Source of the DNA: Bradyrhizobium quebecense
GTDB lineage: Bacteria; Pseudomonadota; Alphaproteobacteria; Rhizobiales; Xanthobacteraceae
Reading direction: 5' to 3'
Assembly: GCF_013373795.3 (NCBI RefSeq)
Contig: NZ_CP088022.1
Span: 8,676,743-8,740,742, forward strand
Length of the DNA: 64,000 nucleotides
The notes under the pieces are model-generated. The model was given only the letters and a program-made list of their open reading frames with translations. It had not been told where the DNA came from and made no database searches. The number at the start of each line of letters is the position of its first letter. Within the stretch, counting starts at the first letter, position 1. A program made the translations under genes and the position numbers. Shown in pieces: positions 53,235 through 64,000 of the stretch.

Positions 53235-56200
53235 ATGGATTTCACCTCAACTAGCCGACTGCAGCAACAATCGAACAGCGCCGCCCAGCAAGAGACTGCA
53301 CCGGTGTCCCCGTCGACAGACGCGGCGGCCTTTGAGCGGCAGCTAAGCGAGATCACCCGTCCAGGTGATCGTGTGCTGATGCAGACCCCCCCCCATCAAG
53401 TCGCCGCATCGCCATCGGAGGCGCAGCCCATCATGCAGGCGAGCGGGCGCGAATGCCCTCCAGCGTCGCAGGGTGAAGGCGGCGGGCCGATGCCAGGCGC
53501 CTCGGCGCTGCAGTCTGGCCAGTCAACAGAGGTTTACATAGGTATCAGCAGGCGTCCTCTTTATTCCCAAGATGCTGACCTTATTTTGGGGCTTGAGGAG
53601 GCCCTCATCAAAGGGGGGGCTGCCGAGCGCACGGCCAAGAACAATGTGAGTAATCTTCTCACTCTCGACCGCTGGCTCTTTGAAAACAAAAAGCAGGCCA
53701 TTGCTGCTCGGCTTAACGACGAGTCGCTGACCAATGATGTCCAGGAGTTCATAAGAAAGGGCGGTACCAAGAAGGTCCGTACAGCACTAGATCATCTCCG
53801 GACCTCGCAGTCGACGGGCGGAATCGTGCCGATCGCAGGCCTCACTGAGTTGAATCCTTATCCCAAGGACGCGGCTCTCATCAAAGAGTGCAAAAACGAA
53901 ACACCAACACATATCGTCCAGAACTATGCAACTGCTCTTCGCAGTTTCAGTGACTACCTGCGTGAAAATAACAAGAAGGGCATTGCTGCTCGGCTTTCCG
54001 ACAAGTCGTTGGATAAAGATGTCGACGGCTATAAGAAAACGCCCGGTCGAGACCCGAAGATCGGGGCCGCTCTAACTTATCTCCGAGGCTCGCGAGCGGG
54101 CGCCCGAGCGATGGAACTCGTGCGCGTTATCTCACCCGTTCCTGATTCTGAAGACGCGGTCCTCATGGAGCCGACGCGAGTCAGGGACGCCGCCGCGCCG
54201 CGCAGCGCGTGGGAGAGATCTGGCAGCTGGCCAGAGGTCCTCCCCGTGGAAGGTCACGATCAAGATTTGCCTTTGGGGATGATGGACGAAACCCGCCCGT
54301 CGTCGCCTCCCGGACCAACCGCGCAAGTCGGTGCATCGCCATCGGAGGCGCAGCCCATTATGCAGGCGAGCGGGCACGAATACCCTCCAGCGTTGCGGGG
54401 TGGAGACGGCGGGCCGATGCCAGGCACCTCGGCGCTGCAGCCGGGCAAGTCACCTGGGGTTTTGGTAGGTCGCAGCAAGCGCCCTCTTTATCTCGAAGAT
54501 AAGCCCCTTATTTTGGGGCTTAGCAAGGCACTCACCGGGGTCGCCGAGCGCACCGCCCAGGACAATGTAGGTCATCTTCTCAGATTGGGCCGCTGGCTCT
54601 TTGAAAACAAAAAGCAGGCCATTGCTGCTCGGCTTAACGACGAGTCGCTGACCAACGACGTTCGGGAGTCGATAGGAAAGGGTGATCCCAAGAGAGTCCG
54701 TAAGGCACTAGATCATCTCCGGACCTCGCTGTCGACGGGCGGAATCGTCCCGATCGGAGGCCGCGCTAAGCTGAATCCGCACCCCGGGGACGAGGCCCTC
54801 ATCAAAGAGTACAAAAACGAAGCAACGACAGGTACCGGCATTACCTATACGGTTGCTCTTGGCAGTTTCAGTGACTACCTGCGCGAAAACAACAAGCCGG
54901 GCATTGCTGGTCGGCTTCCCAGCACGTCGTTGGATGGAGATGTCGAGGACTATAAGAAGGACGCCGGTGGTTACCGCATCATCAGTGCCGCACTGGCCCA
55001 TCTCCGAAAATCGTCGGCCGGCGCTAAGGCGATGGAGCTCGAGCGCCATATTTCTCATCCTGATCCCGAAGACGCGGCCCTGATGGAGCCGAGGCGGGTC
55101 GGCGACGCCGCTGCGGAGCACAGCGCGTCGCAGGAAGCTGGCAGTTGGCCAGAGGAGCTTCCTGCGGAAGCCCACGATCAGGATTTGCTTTGGGGGCTGA
55201 TGGACGAACCCGGCCCGTCGTCCTCGGCGCTGCAGCTGGCTCGATCAACTGGGGTTCGCAGGAAGCAGCCTCTTTATTCCGAGGACGCTCGCCTTATTTC
55301 GGAGCTTGAGAAGGCCCTCATCAAGGGCGGGGCTACCGAAATCACCGCCAAGGCCAATGTGTGGCCCCTTCGCAGCTTTGGCCGCTGGCTTGTCGCAAAT
55401 AAAAGAAAGTCCATTGCTGCTCGGCTCGACGACAAGTCGCTGACCGATGATGCTGAGTTCTTTGGAAAGGGTAATCCCACGAGACTCCTTACGGCAATTG
55501 GTCATCTCCGGACCTCGCAGTCGACGGGCGGGATCGTGCCGATCGCAGGCCGCGCTAAGCTGAATCCTTATCCCCAGGACGTGGCTCTCATCAAAGAGTA
55601 CAAAAACAAAGCTGCGACAGGTACCGTACGTACCTATGCAGTTGTTCTTAACAGTTTCAGTGACTACCTGCGTGAAAATAACAAGAAGGGCATTGCTGCT
55701 CGGCTTTCCGGCAAGGCGTTGGATGGAGATGTCGAGGATTATAAGGACGCTGGTGGTAATCGGAAGATCGGTGCCGCACTGGCCCATCTCCGAAAATCGC
55801 CGGCCGGTAAGGCGATGGAGCTCGATCGCCATATTTCCCCCATTCCTGATCCCGAAGACGCGGCTCTGATGGAGTCGAGGCGGGTCGGCGACGCCGCTGC
55901 GCGGCACAGCGCGTCGCAGCAAGCTTTCAGCAGGCGAGAGGAGCTTCCTGCGGAAGGCTACGATCAGGATTTGGTTTTGGGGCTGATGGACGCCCCCGGC
56001 CCGTCGTCGTCTCTTGAGCCAGCCGCGTGCCATGACCAGGCACCGGATCCCGGAGAGTCCGACCGCCAGCAGTTCCCGGACGAGCCGATCGGTGCACTTG
56101 CCAAGAGCAACCTCCTGCCAAGCGAGGAGGTCGTCATCAACGATGAGCATGACACAGCTGAATTGAGGCCAGCGAAGAGGCCGAGGACCCTAGACAATCT

Positions 56201-57677
56201 GCACGGCGTTGCCATTGAGCGGCAACTGAGCGAGATCGCCAATTCAGGCGGTCGCCTGCTGACGTCGGCCCCCACCCATCAACTGGGTGCATCGCCATGG
56301 CAGGCGCAGCCGACGATGCAGGGGAGTGGGTACCAAGATGCCACGGCGCTGCAGCGAGCTGTCAGTCGGCCATTGGTCCTCCCGGAAGGTTATAATCAGG
56401 ATCTGCGTTTGATGGTGGAAGACGGCCCACCGTGGCCCGGGGTTCCCCCGGAGCAGGCGCAGGACATAGTCCAAGCTGGACAGCAGGAACCTGCCTGGTC
56501 CGCCTCAACCTGGTCGCCGCAGATGCCGCTCAACTTTGATTGGAGTATGTGGCCGGTCCTGGAAGCATCGCCAGCGCACTCTGCCAGGGTTCACTCAGAC
56601 ACCTATGGCGGTCTTGAAGCAGCGGTTAATCCGAATTCGCCCGCATCATTTGAGTTGCGTGACAACGCTTGGAGCCCGCCGCCCGACTTTGCGCCGCCGT
56701 TTGCCAGGCCGGTACCGGGTCATCACCATGGCGCTCGACAGCTCGGCTCGCCGCAGCGGCTTTCTCCGATGCCAGCCTCCTCGGACGATGAAGCTTTGGC
56801 GTGGTTGAGCGAGGAGTTGTCGCGGCGGAAGATGCAAGCACCGGCGTCACCATCAACTGCCAGGGTTCAGCATCTCGCACTGGTGAATCCGAATCCGTCC
56901 GAGTTGCGCGACGATGCTCACTTTGAGCCAGCGCAGGCTGCCAGGGCTCGCTCAAGCACCTACGGCGGTCCTCCATTGGTTGATCTGACTGCGGCCACGC
57001 CGTCTGAATCACGCGACGATGTTAATTCTGTGCCGGCGTTTCCGAGCACCTCCTACGATGCTCAGATCGGGGCTTTAGGTCCGACAGCCTCGCCTCACGG
57101 CCGCGGGCTGGTGCTCGAGGACACGGAATGGCTGGGCGACGAGCATGTCCTGAGAGATTACCAGCTCCTGGCGCAAGAGTTGGGGGGGGACAATCCGAAT
57201 CTCGCCGCCCGGACGCGGTTCGTGGATCCTCTCATAACCCTTGTTAGCCTGCGCTTGGGCACCGAGAGCGAAATGCTACGCGCATTCCAGCGCATCGTCC
57301 ATGATCAGAATGGTGACGACACAGCCGACTTCCTGTTCCTGCCAGTGAACAATGCCCGTGCTACGAATCTCCCCGGCACCCATTGGTCGTTGCTGTTTGT
57401 TGATCGCCGCGACCGCGAAAGGCCGGTTGCCTATCGCTACGACTCCATGGGGGAATACAACAACACGCCCGCAGCAGAGCTCGCAGCAAGGCTGGGCGCC
57501 CGCCTGGAGTCACGCGGCATGACCCAGCAGCTGAACACTTATGATTGCGGCGTCTTCGTGGTGGACGGCACGCGGGCGCTGGTTAGGCAATTGGAGCAAG
57601 GACGAGCACCACACCTGCTGAACCTCAGCAGCCTCGTTGCCAATCGGCAGGCGCTGCAGAACCGACTCAGGGGCTGA
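53235..57677 (+). CDS. nopD: NopD-type type III effector, SUMO protease with internal repeats
   Basis: A 1480-residue effector of the NopD/XopD/Bel2-5 class. A Ser/Thr/Gln-rich N-terminus precedes three long repeats (starting at residues 108, 416 and 678), each made of two related halves with RWLFENKKQAIAARLNDESL-like cores. LxLxL EAR-like motifs (LILGL, 116-120; also LVLGL) could recruit plant co-repressors. A basic nuclear signal, PAKRPR, is at 979-984. The C-terminal C48/ULP domain (about 1290-1480) has H1383 (GTHWSLLFVD), D1403 (RYDSMG) and C1438 (NTYDCGVFV), a complete triad for SUMO removal in the host nucleus. Intact, with a tts box at 53005. An IS66 end starts right behind its stop. 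Confidence 0.92.
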   Translation: MDFTSTSRLQQQSNSAAQQETAPVSPSTDAAAFERQLSEITRPGDRVLMQTPPHQVAASPSEAQPIMQASGRECPPASQGEGGGPMPGASALQSGQSTEVYIGISRRPLYSQDADLILGLEEALIKGGAAERTAKNNVSNLLTLDRWLFENKKQAIAARLNDESLTNDVQEFIRKGGTKKVRTALDHLRTSQSTGGIVPIAGLTELNPYPKDAALIKECKNETPTHIVQNYATALRSFSDYLRENNKKGIAARLSDKSLDKDVDGYKKTPGRDPKIGAALTYLRGSRAGARAMELVRVISPVPDSEDAVLMEPTRVRDAAAPRSAWERSGSWPEVLPVEGHDQDLPLGMMDETRPSSPPGPTAQVGASPSEAQPIMQASGHEYPPALRGGDGGPMPGTSALQPGKSPGVLVGRSKRPLYLEDKPLILGLSKALTGVAERTAQDNVGHLLRLGRWLFENKKQAIAARLNDESLTNDVRESIGKGDPKRVRKALDHLRTSLSTGGIVPIGGRAKLNPHPGDEALIKEYKNEATTGTGITYTVALGSFSDYLRENNKPGIAGRLPSTSLDGDVEDYKKDAGGYRIISAALAHLRKSSAGAKAMELERHISHPDPEDAALMEPRRVGDAAAEHSASQEAGSWPEELPAEAHDQDLLWGLMDEPGPSSSALQLARSTGVRRKQPLYSEDARLISELEKALIKGGATEITAKANVWPLRSFGRWLVANKRKSIAARLDDKSLTDDAEFFGKGNPTRLLTAIGHLRTSQSTGGIVPIAGRAKLNPYPQDVALIKEYKNKAATGTVRTYAVVLNSFSDYLRENNKKGIAARLSGKALDGDVEDYKDAGGNRKIGAALAHLRKSPAGKAMELDRHISPIPDPEDAALMESRRVGDAAARHSASQQAFSRREELPAEGYDQDLVLGLMDAPGPSSSLEPAACHDQAPDPGESDRQQFPDEPIGALAKSNLLPSEEVVINDEHDTAELRPAKRPRTLDNLHGVAIERQLSEIANSGGRLLTSAPTHQLGASPWQAQPTMQGSGYQDATALQRAVSRPLVLPEGYNQDLRLMVEDGPPWPGVPPEQAQDIVQAGQQEPAWSASTWSPQMPLNFDWSMWPVLEASPAHSARVHSDTYGGLEAAVNPNSPASFELRDNAWSPPPDFAPPFARPVPGHHHGARQLGSPQRLSPMPASSDDEALAWLSEELSRRKMQAPASPSTARVQHLALVNPNPSELRDDAHFEPAQAARARSSTYGGPPLVDLTAATPSESRDDVNSVPAFPSTSYDAQIGALGPTASPHGRGLVLEDTEWLGDEHVLRDYQLLAQELGGDNPNLAARTRFVDPLITLVSLRLGTESEMLRAFQRIVHDQNGDDTADFLFLPVNNARATNLPGTHWSLLFVDRRDRERPVAYRYDSMGEYNNTPAAELAARLGARLESRGMTQQLNTYDCGVFVVDGTRALVRQLEQGRAPHLLNLSSLVANRQALQNRLRG
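53556..56010 (+). repeat. Three-fold intragenic repeat of the NopD-type gene
   Basis: Units start at 53556, 54481 and 55267, each opening with CCTCTTTAT and PLY..DA.LI. Each holds two half-units (A: ..LDRWLFENKKQAIAARLNDE; B: ..FSDYLRENNKKGIAARLSDK) and ends in HDQDL.LG.MDE.  DNA identity is high in places, for example GGACCTCGCAGTCGACGGGC in units 1 and 3, which favours unequal crossing over. Confidence 0.88.
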
Positions 57678-59935
<2,258 letters not shown>

Positions 59936-60610
59936 ATGACCGGTATCGCTACCTCCGTCGATGCCGCCCGTGTCGAGCTGCTTCTCAATGAGCTCCGCCT
60001 GCCGGGCGTCAAGGCGATCTGGCCGAAGCTCGCCGCACAGTCGGACAAGGAAGGGTGGCCTGCCGCCCGCTTCCTCGCCGCCCTTGCCGAGCACGAGGCG
60101 GCCGATCGCACCCGCCGTCGGATCGAGCGACACATGGTGGAAGCGCGTTTGCCCGCCGGCAAGACGCTCGCCACCTTCGACTTCGAAAGCGTGCCGATGC
60201 TATCAAAGGCACAGGCGATGGCGCTCGCCGCTGGCGACGCCTGGTTGAAGGCCGGCGCCAATTTGCTCTTGTTCGGTCCACCTGGCGGCGGCAAGACCCA
60301 TCTCGGCACGGCGATCGGCCTGGCTCTCGTCGAGAACGGTTGGCGCGTTCTCTTCGCGCGCACCACCGATCTGGTGCAACGGCTGCAGGTCGCGCGGCGC
60401 GAGCTGGCGCTGGAGTCCGCGATCGCCAAACTCGATCGCTATGACCTCCTGATCCTCGACGACATCACATATGTGAGCAAGGATCAGCCGGAAACCAGTG
60501 TGCTGTTCGAGTTGATCGCCGCCCGCTACGAACGACGCTCGCTGCTGATCACGGCCAATCAGCCATTTGGCGAATGGGGGCGTATCTTCCCGGAGCCGAT
60601 GACTTCATGA
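59936..60610 (+). pseudogene. istB: IS21 helper ATPase IstB, front part, interrupted
   Basis: A DnaA/DnaC-like AAA+ ATPase that guides IstA. It has Walker A FGPPGGGKTHLGTA (about 120), Walker B LLILDDI (about 180) and the sensor region LLITANQPFGEWG. At codon 222 (ATG, 60599) the gene is broken by an inserted element, and reading ends at a stop in the insert (60608-60610). The missing end is at 63237-63434 in matching frame. Removing the insert would give an open reading frame of about 286 residues. Confidence 0.88.
60599..60603. other. Left junction (att-like ATGAC) of the recombinase element
   Basis: The five bases ATGAC occur here and again at 63237-63241, where the istB sequence resumes. 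Joining the flanks at this word restores istB exactly, as expected for site-specific integration with a short shared core. Confidence 0.7.
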
Positions 60611-62707
60611 TGCCTCCTTCTTCGAACGCTTGGTGCGTCGTACCCGATTGCGAAGCTGACGGATTTGGTCGTCTGAGAGCTCGATCTGCCATGGCTGGCC
60701 TTTGGCTAACTGACGACCTGCCAGCAATTCCCGCGCGAGATAATCGAACACCGTCTGCGGGGTCACTCCAAGCTCAGCCGCTGCGCCCTGAATTGAGAAG
60801 CTTCCATCGGGCCAGCGCATCGGATTCTTGTCCACGCCGTTGATTTTGACGGTGGGAATGCCCCAGCGGGTACGCAACAGCCAGACATTCTCGCCTTTGA
60901 AGGCGCAGCCTCGAGCCGCGACGAAGCCTTCCTGATTGAGTATTGCCGCGATCTCGGCATCCATTTTGTGTTCAGCATTCAACTCGACGATCCGTTGCCG
61001 CAACCGATCAATGTCGATGTAATCACGGTATGTCTGAACGCGCCGTTGCACGTGATGCTCGCTGGTTGCACCGGTCTGCCAGACGATCTTGAGCCACACC
61101 TGACCTCGGGTCCGCTTCTGATCAAGAACGACTTCGCGGATCACAAATCGCAGAATGCGCTTGCGATCGGCTGCCGACGTGGTGGCCGCGTTCCAAATCC
61201 GCGGCAGGTTCTCGCCGAGCGCTTGTAGCCCTGCGCATTCCGCCGGGCCAATCAGAAGCGGCTCTTGCCCGCGCCAACGCGCATGCTCCTGCTCGACCGC
61301 CTCTGCGACACGCAGCCTCTCTTCCCAAGCCCGCTCAAGTGAGCGCGCCACAAGACGGTTCTCGGGCTCTACGGCGTCATACTGGCGCCGAGCGCGCTCG
61401 GCCTCGTAGCGGGCGCGCTCCACGCGAAGCGCCCACTGGCGCTCGAGCTGACGGCTCTCCTGCTCCAGTTGGCCCGCGGCTGCGAGTGCGATCTCAATCT
61501 GATCCGGCACCAGGGCGTCGAGGACTATCCGCTCGACCAGCGCGTCAACCGCCAAGGCCCGGACTTCCTGGCACATTGCACTGCCTTGCTGGTCCCGATC
61601 CGAGCGGCAGCAATAGACCGGATAGTCGGCATTCGGGCCCGTGTAGCGCATGCTCATGCGCCGTCCACAACGACCGCAGACCGCAATTCCTTGTAACAGG
61701 GCTGCCCCCTTGCGCGGTACGCCAGAGTGACCTGCCTCATAGCGGCAGACGTTATCTGCCAATCGCCCCTGGTTGGCCATGAACTCCTCCCAGCTGATAT
61801 AGCCTGGGTGAGCGGCGTGGAGGCAAACCGCCCAATCCGCGATCGCTACCTTGACCGTTCCCGTCAGCGATCCCCGCCGGCATCGGCTCGGGTCCTTTTG
61901 CCGGCGGCCATAAACATACGCCCCAGCATAGGCCGGATTCTGAAGGATATTAAGGACGCGTGTGCTATCTGGCGCACGCCAGACGATCTCGTGTGGAGAA
62001 GGTCCAAGCAGCGGCCGAACCGGCAAGGACAATCCATTCCTGTCCAAGTAGCGCATCACACGGCGCGCACTTTGCAGTTCCCGGAATTTAGCAAACACGA
62101 GATGAAGACGGGCGCGCACCTCCTCATCCGGATTGAGAACAATTGTGCCCGCTCGATCGTAGGCGAGCCCGGCCGGCAGCGGCAGCCGCAGTTCGCCCCG
62201 CGCCGCCTTCTGCCGTTCCCCTTGGTGAAGGCGCATCCGAAGCTGATGCAGCTCCGCCTCGCTCATGATGCCGGACAGGCCCAACAGCAGGCGGTCGTGA
62301 TAGGCGCGCGGATCGTAAAGCCGCTCGCCATCCGCAATCAGCACGCCAAATACCGAGCACAGTTCGAGAAGCTGATGCCAGTCCCGGTTATTGCGGGCCA
62401 AGCGCGAAGCGTCGAGACTCACCACGAGACCGGCGTTGCCAAGGCCGATCTCGGCAATGAGCTTCTGGAAACCATGACGGTCCACGCCGCCAGCACCGGA
62501 TTTGCCCAGATCCTCGTCAATCACCTGGACGCGCTCGGGCGGCCAGCCCAGACCGATGGCGCGATCGACAAGGCGGTACTGCAGCTCGGTGCTCTCCTGA
62601 TGCTGGCGCACCTGGTTCACGGATGACTGCCGCACGTAGACATAGGCCAACTTGGCTCGGTGAGCCGTCGTGAGCCGCTCGTCAGCGACGGTCGAGCTGA
62701 TCAGCAC
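60605..62707 (-). CDS. Large serine recombinase
   Basis: A 700-residue site-specific recombinase. The resolvase domain (20-160) has the nucleophile in YVYVRQSS (S28, with S29 next), SLDASRLARNNRDW (SRxxR) and EDLGKSG. The Recombinase domain (about 170-290) follows, then a zinc ribbon (CGRCGRRMSM...YCC...C, about 345-385) and a long coiled coil (about 395-480). The last about 70 residues form an added HTH-like domain (IQGAAAELGVTPQTVFDYLA). It is the main gene of the element inserted in istB and probably drove that insertion. Intact. Its start overlaps the small gene upstream. Confidence 0.93.
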   Translation of the reverse strand: MLISSTVADERLTTAHRAKLAYVYVRQSSVNQVRQHQESTELQYRLVDRAIGLGWPPERVQVIDEDLGKSGAGGVDRHGFQKLIAEIGLGNAGLVVSLDASRLARNNRDWHQLLELCSVFGVLIADGERLYDPRAYHDRLLLGLSGIMSEAELHQLRMRLHQGERQKAARGELRLPLPAGLAYDRAGTIVLNPDEEVRARLHLVFAKFRELQSARRVMRYLDRNGLSLPVRPLLGPSPHEIVWRAPDSTRVLNILQNPAYAGAYVYGRRQKDPSRCRRGSLTGTVKVAIADWAVCLHAAHPGYISWEEFMANQGRLADNVCRYEAGHSGVPRKGAALLQGIAVCGRCGRRMSMRYTGPNADYPVYCCRSDRDQQGSAMCQEVRALAVDALVERIVLDALVPDQIEIALAAAGQLEQESRQLERQWALRVERARYEAERARRQYDAVEPENRLVARSLERAWEERLRVAEAVEQEHARWRGQEPLLIGPAECAGLQALGENLPRIWNAATTSAADRKRILRFVIREVVLDQKRTRGQVWLKIVWQTGATSEHHVQRRVQTYRDYIDIDRLRQRIVELNAEHKMDAEIAAILNQEGFVAARGCAFKGENVWLLRTRWGIPTVKINGVDKNPMRWPDGSFSIQGAAAELGVTPQTVFDYLARELLAGRQLAKGQPWQIELSDDQIRQLRNRVRRTKRSKKEAS

Positions 62708-62909
62708 GACCCAGTCCCCTTCCGGGCGTGCCGGGGATCGCTTGCATTCGCCGCATCAGCGCGGCGATCGTTTGAGCAATCTGGGTTTGCGTCGCGGTCG
62801 ACAGATTCGGCCAGAGGCGCGGAATATCGGCCATCGGACGGCCGGATGGATTTGCCAACGTTGGCAGGGGTCGATACGCAACGCGACCTGGGAGCGGTCG
62901 GTGGGTCAT
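62682..62909 (-). CDS. Small protein of the recombinase element
   Basis: A 75-residue frame: MADIPRLWPNLSTATQTQIA then QTIAALMRRMQAIPGTPGRG. It ends 26 bases inside the recombinase gene, suggesting coupled translation. The pattern looks like a conserved helper of this element type; the function is unknown. The true start may be the internal ATG at M26. Confidence 0.6.
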   Translation of the reverse strand: MTHRPLPGRVAYRPLPTLANPSGRPMADIPRLWPNLSTATQTQIAQTIAALMRRMQAIPGTPGRGLGRADQLDRR

Positions 62910-63189
62910 CGCGAATCACCTTCTCGTCGAGAAGGCTCAGACTCGCGCTCAAATGTTGCATCAATGGGATCAGCGTCCGTACACTGATGCGCGGCAGGTC
63001 GGCCGCGTTCGGGCGGAAAGCGATCGACGTCTCGGTAAGATCCGTCGACGCGATCCGAACCCCCCGCCGCCGTCCGTCCGGCAGCGCGACAACAACGTAG
63101 GCGGGACCGCGTCCCGACCGCTCCTTCAGCACCTCAAGCCGGTGCCCAAATAGGAAATGATGCGGGTCAGTGATCGTGACGTGAGACAC
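62701..63189 (-). CDS. DUF5372-like small protein of the recombinase element
   Basis: From a GTG at 63189 it reads SHVTITDPHHFLFGHRLEVL then KERSGRGPAYVVVALPDGRR, like the DUF5372 beta-barrel proteins often found before such recombinases. The frame starts at TTG 63237, inside the att word, but GTG 63189 is more natural. Its last about 60 codons lie over the next gene in another frame and look like shadow sequence, so a late frameshift is possible. Confidence 0.6.
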   Translation of the reverse strand: MSHVTITDPHHFLFGHRLEVLKERSGRGPAYVVVALPDGRRRGVRIASTDLTETSIAFRPNAADLPRISVRTLIPLMQHLSASLSLLDEKVIRDDPPTAPRSRCVSTPANVGKSIRPSDGRYSAPLAESVDRDANPDCSNDRRADAANASDPRHARKGTGSC

Positions 63190-63236
63190 GACCCGTTCAA
63201 GAATAGGGGTACTCTGCCGTGTTCGGCGACCAGGCA

Positions 63237-63241
63237 ATGAC
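63237..63241. other. Right junction (att-like ATGAC) of the recombinase element
   Basis: Second copy of the ATGAC word. The element between the two copies is about 2.64 kb and holds three genes, all on the minus strand. Confidence 0.7.
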
Positions 63242-63434
63242 GTTGGCTGCCATCGATCGTTTGGTCCACCACGCCACGATCCTCGAGATGAACGTCGAAA
63301 GTTACCGTCGAAAAGTTGCCCTCGATCGCAGACGCGGTCCAGGCCGGCCGCCTGTTCACACTACCCCCAACGAACTCGACGGCGGCCAGCGTCAATTATC
63401 TCCTGACTCGGCCGCCTCGTCTCATCTTGATTGA
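63237..63434 (+). pseudogene. istB: IstB, end part after the insertion
   Basis: MTLAAIDRLVHHATILEMNV then ESYRRKVALDRR is the usual C-terminal part of IstB, followed by an extension to TGA at 63432. It continues codon 222 of the front part without loss or gain. Confidence 0.85.
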
Positions 63435-64000
63435 CGCGCCGCTCCCATCCTGATTGTCGCGTTATAAACGATAGGCGCTCGGTATCCGAATACGCCCACG
63501 TGGAGGCGAGGCGCGTCAGACCGCCAAACTCCTGTGATACAAAACCGCCCCGGGTTTGCCGGAGGCCATTTAGTTTAAGTTCTGCCGCCATGGCGGATTG
63601 TTCCAGCATGGCGTAGTAGCGTTTCTCGGCTTCGGCCGGCGGTATGTTGCCGATGGGCTCGAGGAGCCGTCGGTTGTTGAACCAATCCACCCATTCCAGG
63701 TCGCATGTCGCAATCTCGACGGCCTCGAAGCTGCGCCATGGGCCGCGCGGGATCACCTCGGCCTTGTAGAGACCGTTGATGGTTTCGGTGAGAGCATTGT
63801 CATAGGAATCTCCGAGGCTGCCGACAGAAGGCCCCACACCAGCTTCAGCCAAGCGCTCGATGTACTTAATGGATACGTATTGGCTGCCTCTGTCGCTGTG
63901 GTGCACGAGCCCGCCACGATGGACCGGCCGTCGATCTTGCAGTGCCTGCTCCAGCGCATCGAGCACGAAGCTGCATGCGCCGCGCGCGAGGCTCGCCAGC
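63361..64000 (-). pseudogene. IS3-family orfB, C-terminal part, runs off the window
   Basis: The frame is open at the window end (LASLARGACSFVLDALEQAL) and shows HHSDRGSQYVSIKYIERLAE (second Asp), GDSYDNALTETINGLYKAEV (Glu) and EWVDWFNNRRLLEPIGNIPP. These are typical of the IS3 group. The natural stop after SAMAA is changed to a GAA codon, so the frame runs about 75 codons past the IS end (near 63535) to 63361. The front half is outside the window. Confidence 0.82.

Follow-up and report, generated by a model that had tools for sequence, protein, structure and literature searches.

The window analysed here, a stretch of 64,000 nucleotides (nt) of Bradyrhizobium quebecense DNA (contig NZ_CP088022.1, positions 8,676,743 to 8,740,742), carries near its right end an istB gene, encoding the helper ATPase of an IS21 insertion sequence, that is interrupted by a 2.6-kb unit with three open reading frames (ORFs), a serine recombinase among them. 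The insertion, reported in an earlier note on this DNA, is genuine, as confirmed by the ORFs, the profile matches and intact istB copies. The 5' part of istB (59936 to 60594, + strand) runs through the GA of an Asp codon and was recognised by PF01695 (1.8e-48), NF038214 (1.7e-67) and comparison with three intact genes of the host genome (L130, L131 and L136); the interrupted open frame continues into the element as far as 60610. The element proper, whose recombinase strand is antiparallel to istB, spans 60595 to 63227 (2633 bp, - strand) plus one copy of a shared GA. This GA core dinucleotide stands at both borders (60593 to 60594 on the left, the crossover point, and 63228 to 63229 on the right). 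The 3' part of istB (63230 to 63434, + strand) runs on like the intact L136 protein to the C-terminus.

The recombinase (60605 to 62707, - strand; 700 amino acids, aa) ends with a stop codon 10 nt before the core. It has the domain set of the large serine recombinases, a Resolvase catalytic domain, a Recombinase domain, a zinc ribbon and a coiled coil (PF00239, 2.7e-17; PF07508, 7.4e-13; PF13408, 4.9e-09), and Ser28, which from the YxRxS motif we take to be the catalytic residue, is invariant across 27 aligned sequences. In a fold comparison residues 6-547 resemble serine-integrase structures, while residues ~548-700 form an additional C-terminal part beyond that fold. Since the model of the recombinase has a predicted TM-score (pTM) of 0.38, only within-domain features were used. 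The additional part possibly contains an excisionase-like helix-turn-helix (HTH) domain: Foldseek matched the modelled C-terminus to Pukovnik Xis (4j2n_C; E 0.16, probability 1.00, 57 columns, 32% identity), an entry that is not among the 50 matches listed in another fold search of the recombinase, and HTH_17 scored under its cut-off on the window protein (E 0.13) and above the 27-bit cut-off in six of eight C-terminal pieces of relatives, which had been preselected for an HTH-like look. By sequence, comparison with the PDB gave a single weak match for the recombinase (3guv_A, E 0.00012); the last 81 residues on their own had no match. The model for the XisF recombinases of the fdxN element, NF041201, reached 73.3 bits and stayed under its cut-off of 375.

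The start of the recombinase gene is overlapped by an ORF for a small protein of 75 aa (62682 to 62909, - strand; ORF list), for which no Pfam match was found; a small ORF was called at its position in 91 of the 96 full-length relatives under lenient script criteria that let chance frames through as well. The third gene (62701 to 63189, - strand) probably starts at or near GTG 63189, the listed start, 63237, falling in istB. Its product scores 17.7 bits with PF17342 (DUF5372; 0.0038), under the gathering cut-off of 25, and is therefore called DUF5372-like; our own profile of it matches in 84 of the 96 full-length relatives, and the alignment shows a conserved region over about the first 90 residues and a C-terminal half that is not conserved. 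A small beta-barrel with helices is predicted (mean predicted local distance difference test score, pLDDT, 71.0). SH3 domains came out on top in the Foldseek comparison of this model with the PDB, and as the best of them reached no more than E 0.023, no function was inferred for the protein; the open-licence literature gave no mention of DUF5372. None of the three element ORFs matches a relaxase model of Pfam or NCBIfam, a search that did not extend to an origin of transfer (oriT), and with no relaxase among these ORFs an integrative and mobilizable element (IME) is ruled out. IS21 models do not match the three inner ORFs either, and istB is the target outside the element, which is thus not an IS21 transposon.

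The ends were set from eight near-identical full copies and from intact istB genes, all of the host genome. The left junction, GA/GCCGATGACTTC, and the right junction, GTGTTCGGC/GA, are common to all eight copies in the junction line-up, and comparison of filled with empty sites places the crossover at the GA inside the Asp codon of the F-x-D motif of IstB. Intact B-type copies of the same IS21 (L130, L131 and L136) read CTTCCCGGACCAGGCAATGACG (IFPDQAMTLAA) at this place; their empty site, CTTCCCGGACCAGGC, corresponds to CTTCCCGGA/GCCGATG...GTGTTCGGC/GACCAGGC at the filled site of the window, and the empty A-type site, GTGTTCGGTGATGCC, to filled GTGTTCGGTGA/GCCG... and ...GTGTTCGGC/GATGCC. Once joined, the element ends would give TTCGGC-GA-GCCGAT, a five-base palindrome around GA. 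A megablast search with 60595-63227 aligned the whole element (bases 1 to 2633) as a single piece in four Bradyrhizobium plasmids (H121, H122, H123 and H125), found among the 20 listed of 36 records.

These ends replace the boundary of the earlier note, 60599 to 63241, which had been drawn at a pair of ATGAC words taken to be the site of recombination. Such a pair does flank the window copy, and removal of the unit restores an istB frame as the note had claimed; the ATGAC-based join, however, yields IFPEPMTLAA, which has one codon too few and two altered residues compared with the intact protein, although it is still in frame. The left ATGAC belongs to the element and the right one to the Met-Thr codons of istB; the latter occurs near the junction in four of the eight copies of the host genome (L001-L004) and is absent from the other four (L005-L008). 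The pair at the window copy is a coincidence. As a target-site duplication ATGAC is ruled out by the other copies and the empty sites, and recombination at this five-base word has next to no chance of being the mechanism, since the empty sites of the host genome, with IFPDQAMT and not IFPEPMT, already refute it.

Searching the host genome (9.17 Mb in four contigs, C1 to C4) with the 2.6-kb unit returned eight full copies and one partial copy. Five of them (L001-L005) are identical across 2637 bases and lie in three istB types, L001 in the B-type, L002-L004 in the A-type and L005 in another one, a recent spread into different istB genes; L006, L007 and L008 have one substitution in common, with one further in L008. 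The interrupted gene types are also present intact, as nine A-type (L119-L127) and three B-type genes (L130, L131 and L136). Altogether 21 istB N-terminal parts are recognisable in this genome, 14 of full length and seven ending at the same place (counted from 31 rows, two rows of one frame-broken gene being taken once), and the four istB reference types are pairwise 28-39% identical. L196 (C1:6152500-6158500) is a shortened copy, consisting of the right ~700 bp only, that adjoins an A-type istB C-terminus.

Two copies have rearranged flanks. L006 (C3:76287-81919) has an istB N-terminal part at each side and L008 (C2:11349-16979) an istB C-terminal part at each side, and their outer flanks, when joined, form a single well-preserved istB C-terminal region (TETFGSERLTGALLDRMTHH) preceded by an N-terminal part that is degraded. 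As the flanks rejoin into istB, copies lying in opposite orientations on two replicons have recombined with each other, and C3 and C2 hold the products. The istB site of L006 and L008 has a Ser codon, TCC, whose TC was used as the core in the opposite orientation.

With the recombinase as the query, species genomes gave 111 matching relatives, and the best 80 loci were taken. The same istB codon is interrupted in 71 of the 78 assessable relatives (70 by script and L081 by eye), and this, together with the identical copies, supports the earlier proposal of a minimal site-specific mobile element that has a conserved istB codon as its target. By script, upstream ends lie in istB in 55 of 61 cases and downstream ends in 58 of 66 (60 with L081 and L109, added by eye); where both ends are assessable (49 loci), both istB halves are present in 43 by script and in 44 with L109 by eye. 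The hosts are Bradyrhizobium, Rhizobium, Mesorhizobium, Acetobacteraceae, Azospirillum and Thiocystis, and also metagenome bins named Chloroflexi, Acidobacteriaceae and Dormibacteraeota. Seven loci are exceptions. L042 (Bradyrhizobium sp. SSUT77, NZ_JARVWW010000049.1) directly adjoins an element of another subtype; the tandem has its joint at the TC core, an arrangement that points to insertion into one end of an element already in place. L078 sits in a DDE transposase gene (IS5 type by eye) and L106 and L110 in IS630-type genes by eye, with DDE_3 in L110; L107 has a HerA-like target (HerA_C, 7.3e-06), L102 a weak Usp-like one under the cut-off (0.041), and L118 is a distant member of 41% identity.

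Orientation follows the core. A survey covered the 83 loci that are 50% or more identical and whose C-terminal end is readable, host-genome copies and some repeated loci included; the core lies exactly 10 nt past the recombinase stop in 79 of them (TC in 56, GA in 21 and AA in two), the other four being L106 and L110, with their IS630-type targets, and L027 and L115, with broken frames. After removal of repeats, the 71 distinct ends comprise 45 TC, 20 GA, two AA and four others. TC elements are antiparallel to istB, with the exception of L008 and L076 in Ser-type istB, where the TC of the TCC codon is used and the element is parallel, and of L042, L078 and L102, which have no simple istB setting; GA and AA elements are parallel. 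L063 and L064 have similar element ends, GA and TC cores, respectively, and opposite orientations. A dinucleotide at both ends that decides the orientation, as in large serine recombinases, is hence the rule apart from L051, L066 and L095, and this linkage would be expected of conservative two-base recombination by such an enzyme.

We propose that the unit is an autonomous compact mobile element that uses conservative large-serine-recombinase recombination and the istB motif as its landing site, a reading to which we give a probability of roughly 90%. The element would leave as a circle, and the recombinase would bind the joined ends and the matching istB site, cut both at the two-base core, swap the strands and ligate them, leaving the element inside istB with GA at each end. 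Excision may be controlled by the Xis-like domain or by the small proteins. Very different IS21 elements contain the target site, since it encodes the conserved F-x-D/S motif of IstB, and because IS21 is dispensable, mobile and present in many copies, the landing site is common and the cost to the host low. Several points weigh against this proposal. No excision, circle or integration event has been observed; two members of the near family, L107 and L102, sit in genes that are not evidently of mobile elements; and some cores are imperfect, the two ends of the parallel copies L051 and L066 reading AA and GA and the sole readable end of L095 reading CT instead of TC.

Movement of IS21 might carry the element along, and such hitch-hiking, with part of the copies gained in this way, is plausible. 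A stronger version, in which a single insertion into an A-type IS21 was followed by transposition of the composite with intact copies acting in trans, so that riding was the main route of multiplication, falls somewhat short of an even chance in our estimation. The genome holds three whole composites of A-type IS21 and element, L002 (C4), L003 (C2) and L004 (C1), beside the nine intact A-type istB copies; the left IS21 flanks of the composites differ from intact L119 by 0, 0 and 2 mismatches over ~1500 bp, and the right flanks agree over 237-238 bases before they diverge from each other, so the composites stand at three places. Separate insertions into identical IS21 copies would, however, give the same picture, and the identical element also occurs in two other istB types (L001 and L005), which is impossible by riding one IS21. 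It is quite unlikely that the element was spread among istB genes by homologous recombination (gene conversion) instead of by its recombinase. Inter-copy recombination does fit istB halves on opposite strands (L006, L008, L076 and L093) and halves that best match two istB types (L014, L063 and L067), but exact insertion at a single codon across istB types just 28-39% identical, an orientation set by a dinucleotide and the retargeting of related clades to unrelated genes call for a site-specific enzyme, and gene conversion is rejected on these features as the main route.

The earlier view of istB as the target holds for the close relatives, and the range of the wider family is broader, related clades using other transposase, reverse-transcriptase and tyrosine-recombinase genes. 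Distant relatives (35-45% identity) have the same plan and other targets, and in the flanking frames the following were found above the Pfam or NCBIfam cut-offs: a reverse transcriptase with a group II intron maturase domain, IS66 TnpC and TnpB, rve/rve_3 (IS3 type by eye), DDE_Tnp_1 with DUF4372 (IS4 type by eye), DDE_Tnp_1, IstB cut at the P-loop, Phage_integrase (a tyrosine recombinase) and DDE_3 (IS630 type by eye). Under the cut-offs are an IstA-like rve target (26.9 bits, cut-off 32.6) and the target of L118 (a partial match to an ISCR-type model, E 0.00087, read as IS91 by eye), and that of L160_0 matches a tyrosine-recombinase C-terminus weakly (best E 0.00054); the target halves of L212 match the IS5 model NF033580 at 1-224 and 219-257, the shorter half being under the whole-protein cut-off. 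An automatic comparison placed a mobile-element gene part near an end in 46 of 52 distinct distant full-length recombinases, to which L118 and L160_0 add with weak scores; for the remaining four (L037, L038, L176 and L177), which form one subfamily, the flank comparison identified no target gene. As the comparison library was partly built from the same loci and gives self-matches, those targets rest on Pfam or record annotation. A plasmid sample was drawn from the 60 listed of 413 plasmid records and consists of 18 single-piece matches from across the ranking whose coverage was 80% or more. Each of the 18 has part of a mobile-element gene at one or both ends, and in eight both target halves are present (L197, L199, L200, L201, L205, L208, L210, whose upstream gap is wide at 880 nt, and L212). 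Homologues in unrelated targets that lack an ATGAC pair, which the earlier note had named as counter-evidence, do exist, and they refute the ATGAC part only.

A quick tree was built from 89 recombinases, of which 87 carry a target-motif label, and 85 of these sit in mobile-element genes. It needs 20 changes for 21 labels, the minimum possible, while shuffled labels need 52.0 on average and none of 200 shuffles was as low as 20; an earlier version of the tree gave 16 changes for 17 labels. The two unlabelled rows, L037 and L176, fall within the IS3-targeting clade. These counts are to be read with the rows being chosen by us (33 belong to the istB clade), the labels being set from the flanks and not blind, near-copies favouring clustering, and long branches being flagged in this quick method. 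Loci found in the searches with this recombinase as the query do not sample serine recombinases at random; a class-wide search with L020 at E <= 1e-150 gave 0 of 289 genomes, a threshold too strict to be informative. It is probable, if less so than the proposal for the istB element itself, that there is a family of compact elements specialised on other mobile elements, each encoding a recombinase with a fused excisionase-like domain, a small protein and a DUF5372-like protein. Each clade would be locked on one site in a conserved motif of another mobile-element gene, motifs would be switched between clades and orientation would flip with the two-base core, so that the family would consist of general hyperparasites of insertion sequences with possibly self-contained excision control. 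At L160 (G054:C1:6897300-6906000) two related elements stand in direct tandem between apparent halves of a tyrosine-recombinase gene, and L154 (G017:C1:7493000-7502000) has a convergent pair of neighbouring elements from the IS66-targeting clade.

If this holds, the safe haven of an integrase family is the conserved part of other selfish genes and not a host gene, every insertion harms the parasite of the host and not the host, adding a layer to mobile-element ecology, and broken transposase genes annotated as fragments are accounted for. Identical 2.6-kb copies are a route to replicon rearrangement. Related to one another and with many target sites that can be read, the large serine recombinases of this family form a natural series useful for studying how sites are chosen and changed, and the family may provide a natural recombinase-excisionase fusion for studying built-in control of direction.

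Around the interrupted gene, the region upstream of istB where istA is expected (window 58828-59884, + strand) is broken into several short frames, and the window IS21 copy may therefore be unable to move by itself. On the opposite strand, a transposase-like frame (window 63361-63999, - strand) overlaps the istB 3' part, with rve_3 (PF13683) at C1:8740379-8740582. Further upstream lies a 1480-aa frame with internal repeats (window 53235-57677, + strand), the C-terminus of which presumably resembles the C48-type (Ulp1) protease of rhizobial effectors.

Compared with the large serine recombinases of phages and of integrative and conjugative elements (ICEs), such as those of phiC31 and Bxb1 and the Listeria integrase, the element recombinase is alike in domain order, in the fold of residues 6-547 and in the two-base core that sets orientation; it differs by the extra ~150 C-terminal residues with a possible excisionase-like HTH, and its unit is without phage or ICE genes. 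The open-licence literature, subscription papers and ISfinder being outside this scope, gave no description of serine-recombinase elements that target istB or transposase genes, and the terms 'insertion sequence' and 'IS21' are absent from the main text of a survey of large serine recombinases that reports Mg-chelatase-type and competence genes among the favoured targets (PMC10083194). With the multi-targeting recombinases of the TndX/Cp36 clade treated in the same survey the element has many insertion places in one genome in common; its site is a conserved coding motif, whereas the example from that clade uses a relaxed T/A-rich site, and DUF4368, common in the clade, is not among the Pfam matches of the element recombinase (PMC10083194). 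The group II intron RmInt1, which homes into the IS630-type ISRm2011-2, is likewise a small rhizobial element using a site in an abundant insertion sequence, by RNA-based retrohoming in contrast to DNA recombination by a serine recombinase (PMC4496777). That an integrase element can lie inside another element is already known in principle. Among streptococcal IMEs with serine integrases, 12 of 16 lie inside a conserved gene of a Tn5252-type ICE, and their integrase families mostly sort by target gene (PMC5357655). They thus resemble the Bradyrhizobium element in having a serine integrase, in disrupting a conserved gene of another mobile element and in integrase groups that sort by target (PMC5357655). 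Streptococcal IMEs, however, have relaxases and conjugative mobilisation, while no transfer gene was found in the ~2.6-kb Bradyrhizobium element, and they sit in ICEs, whereas the family described here sits in insertion sequences and other transposase, reverse-transcriptase and recombinase genes (PMC5357655).

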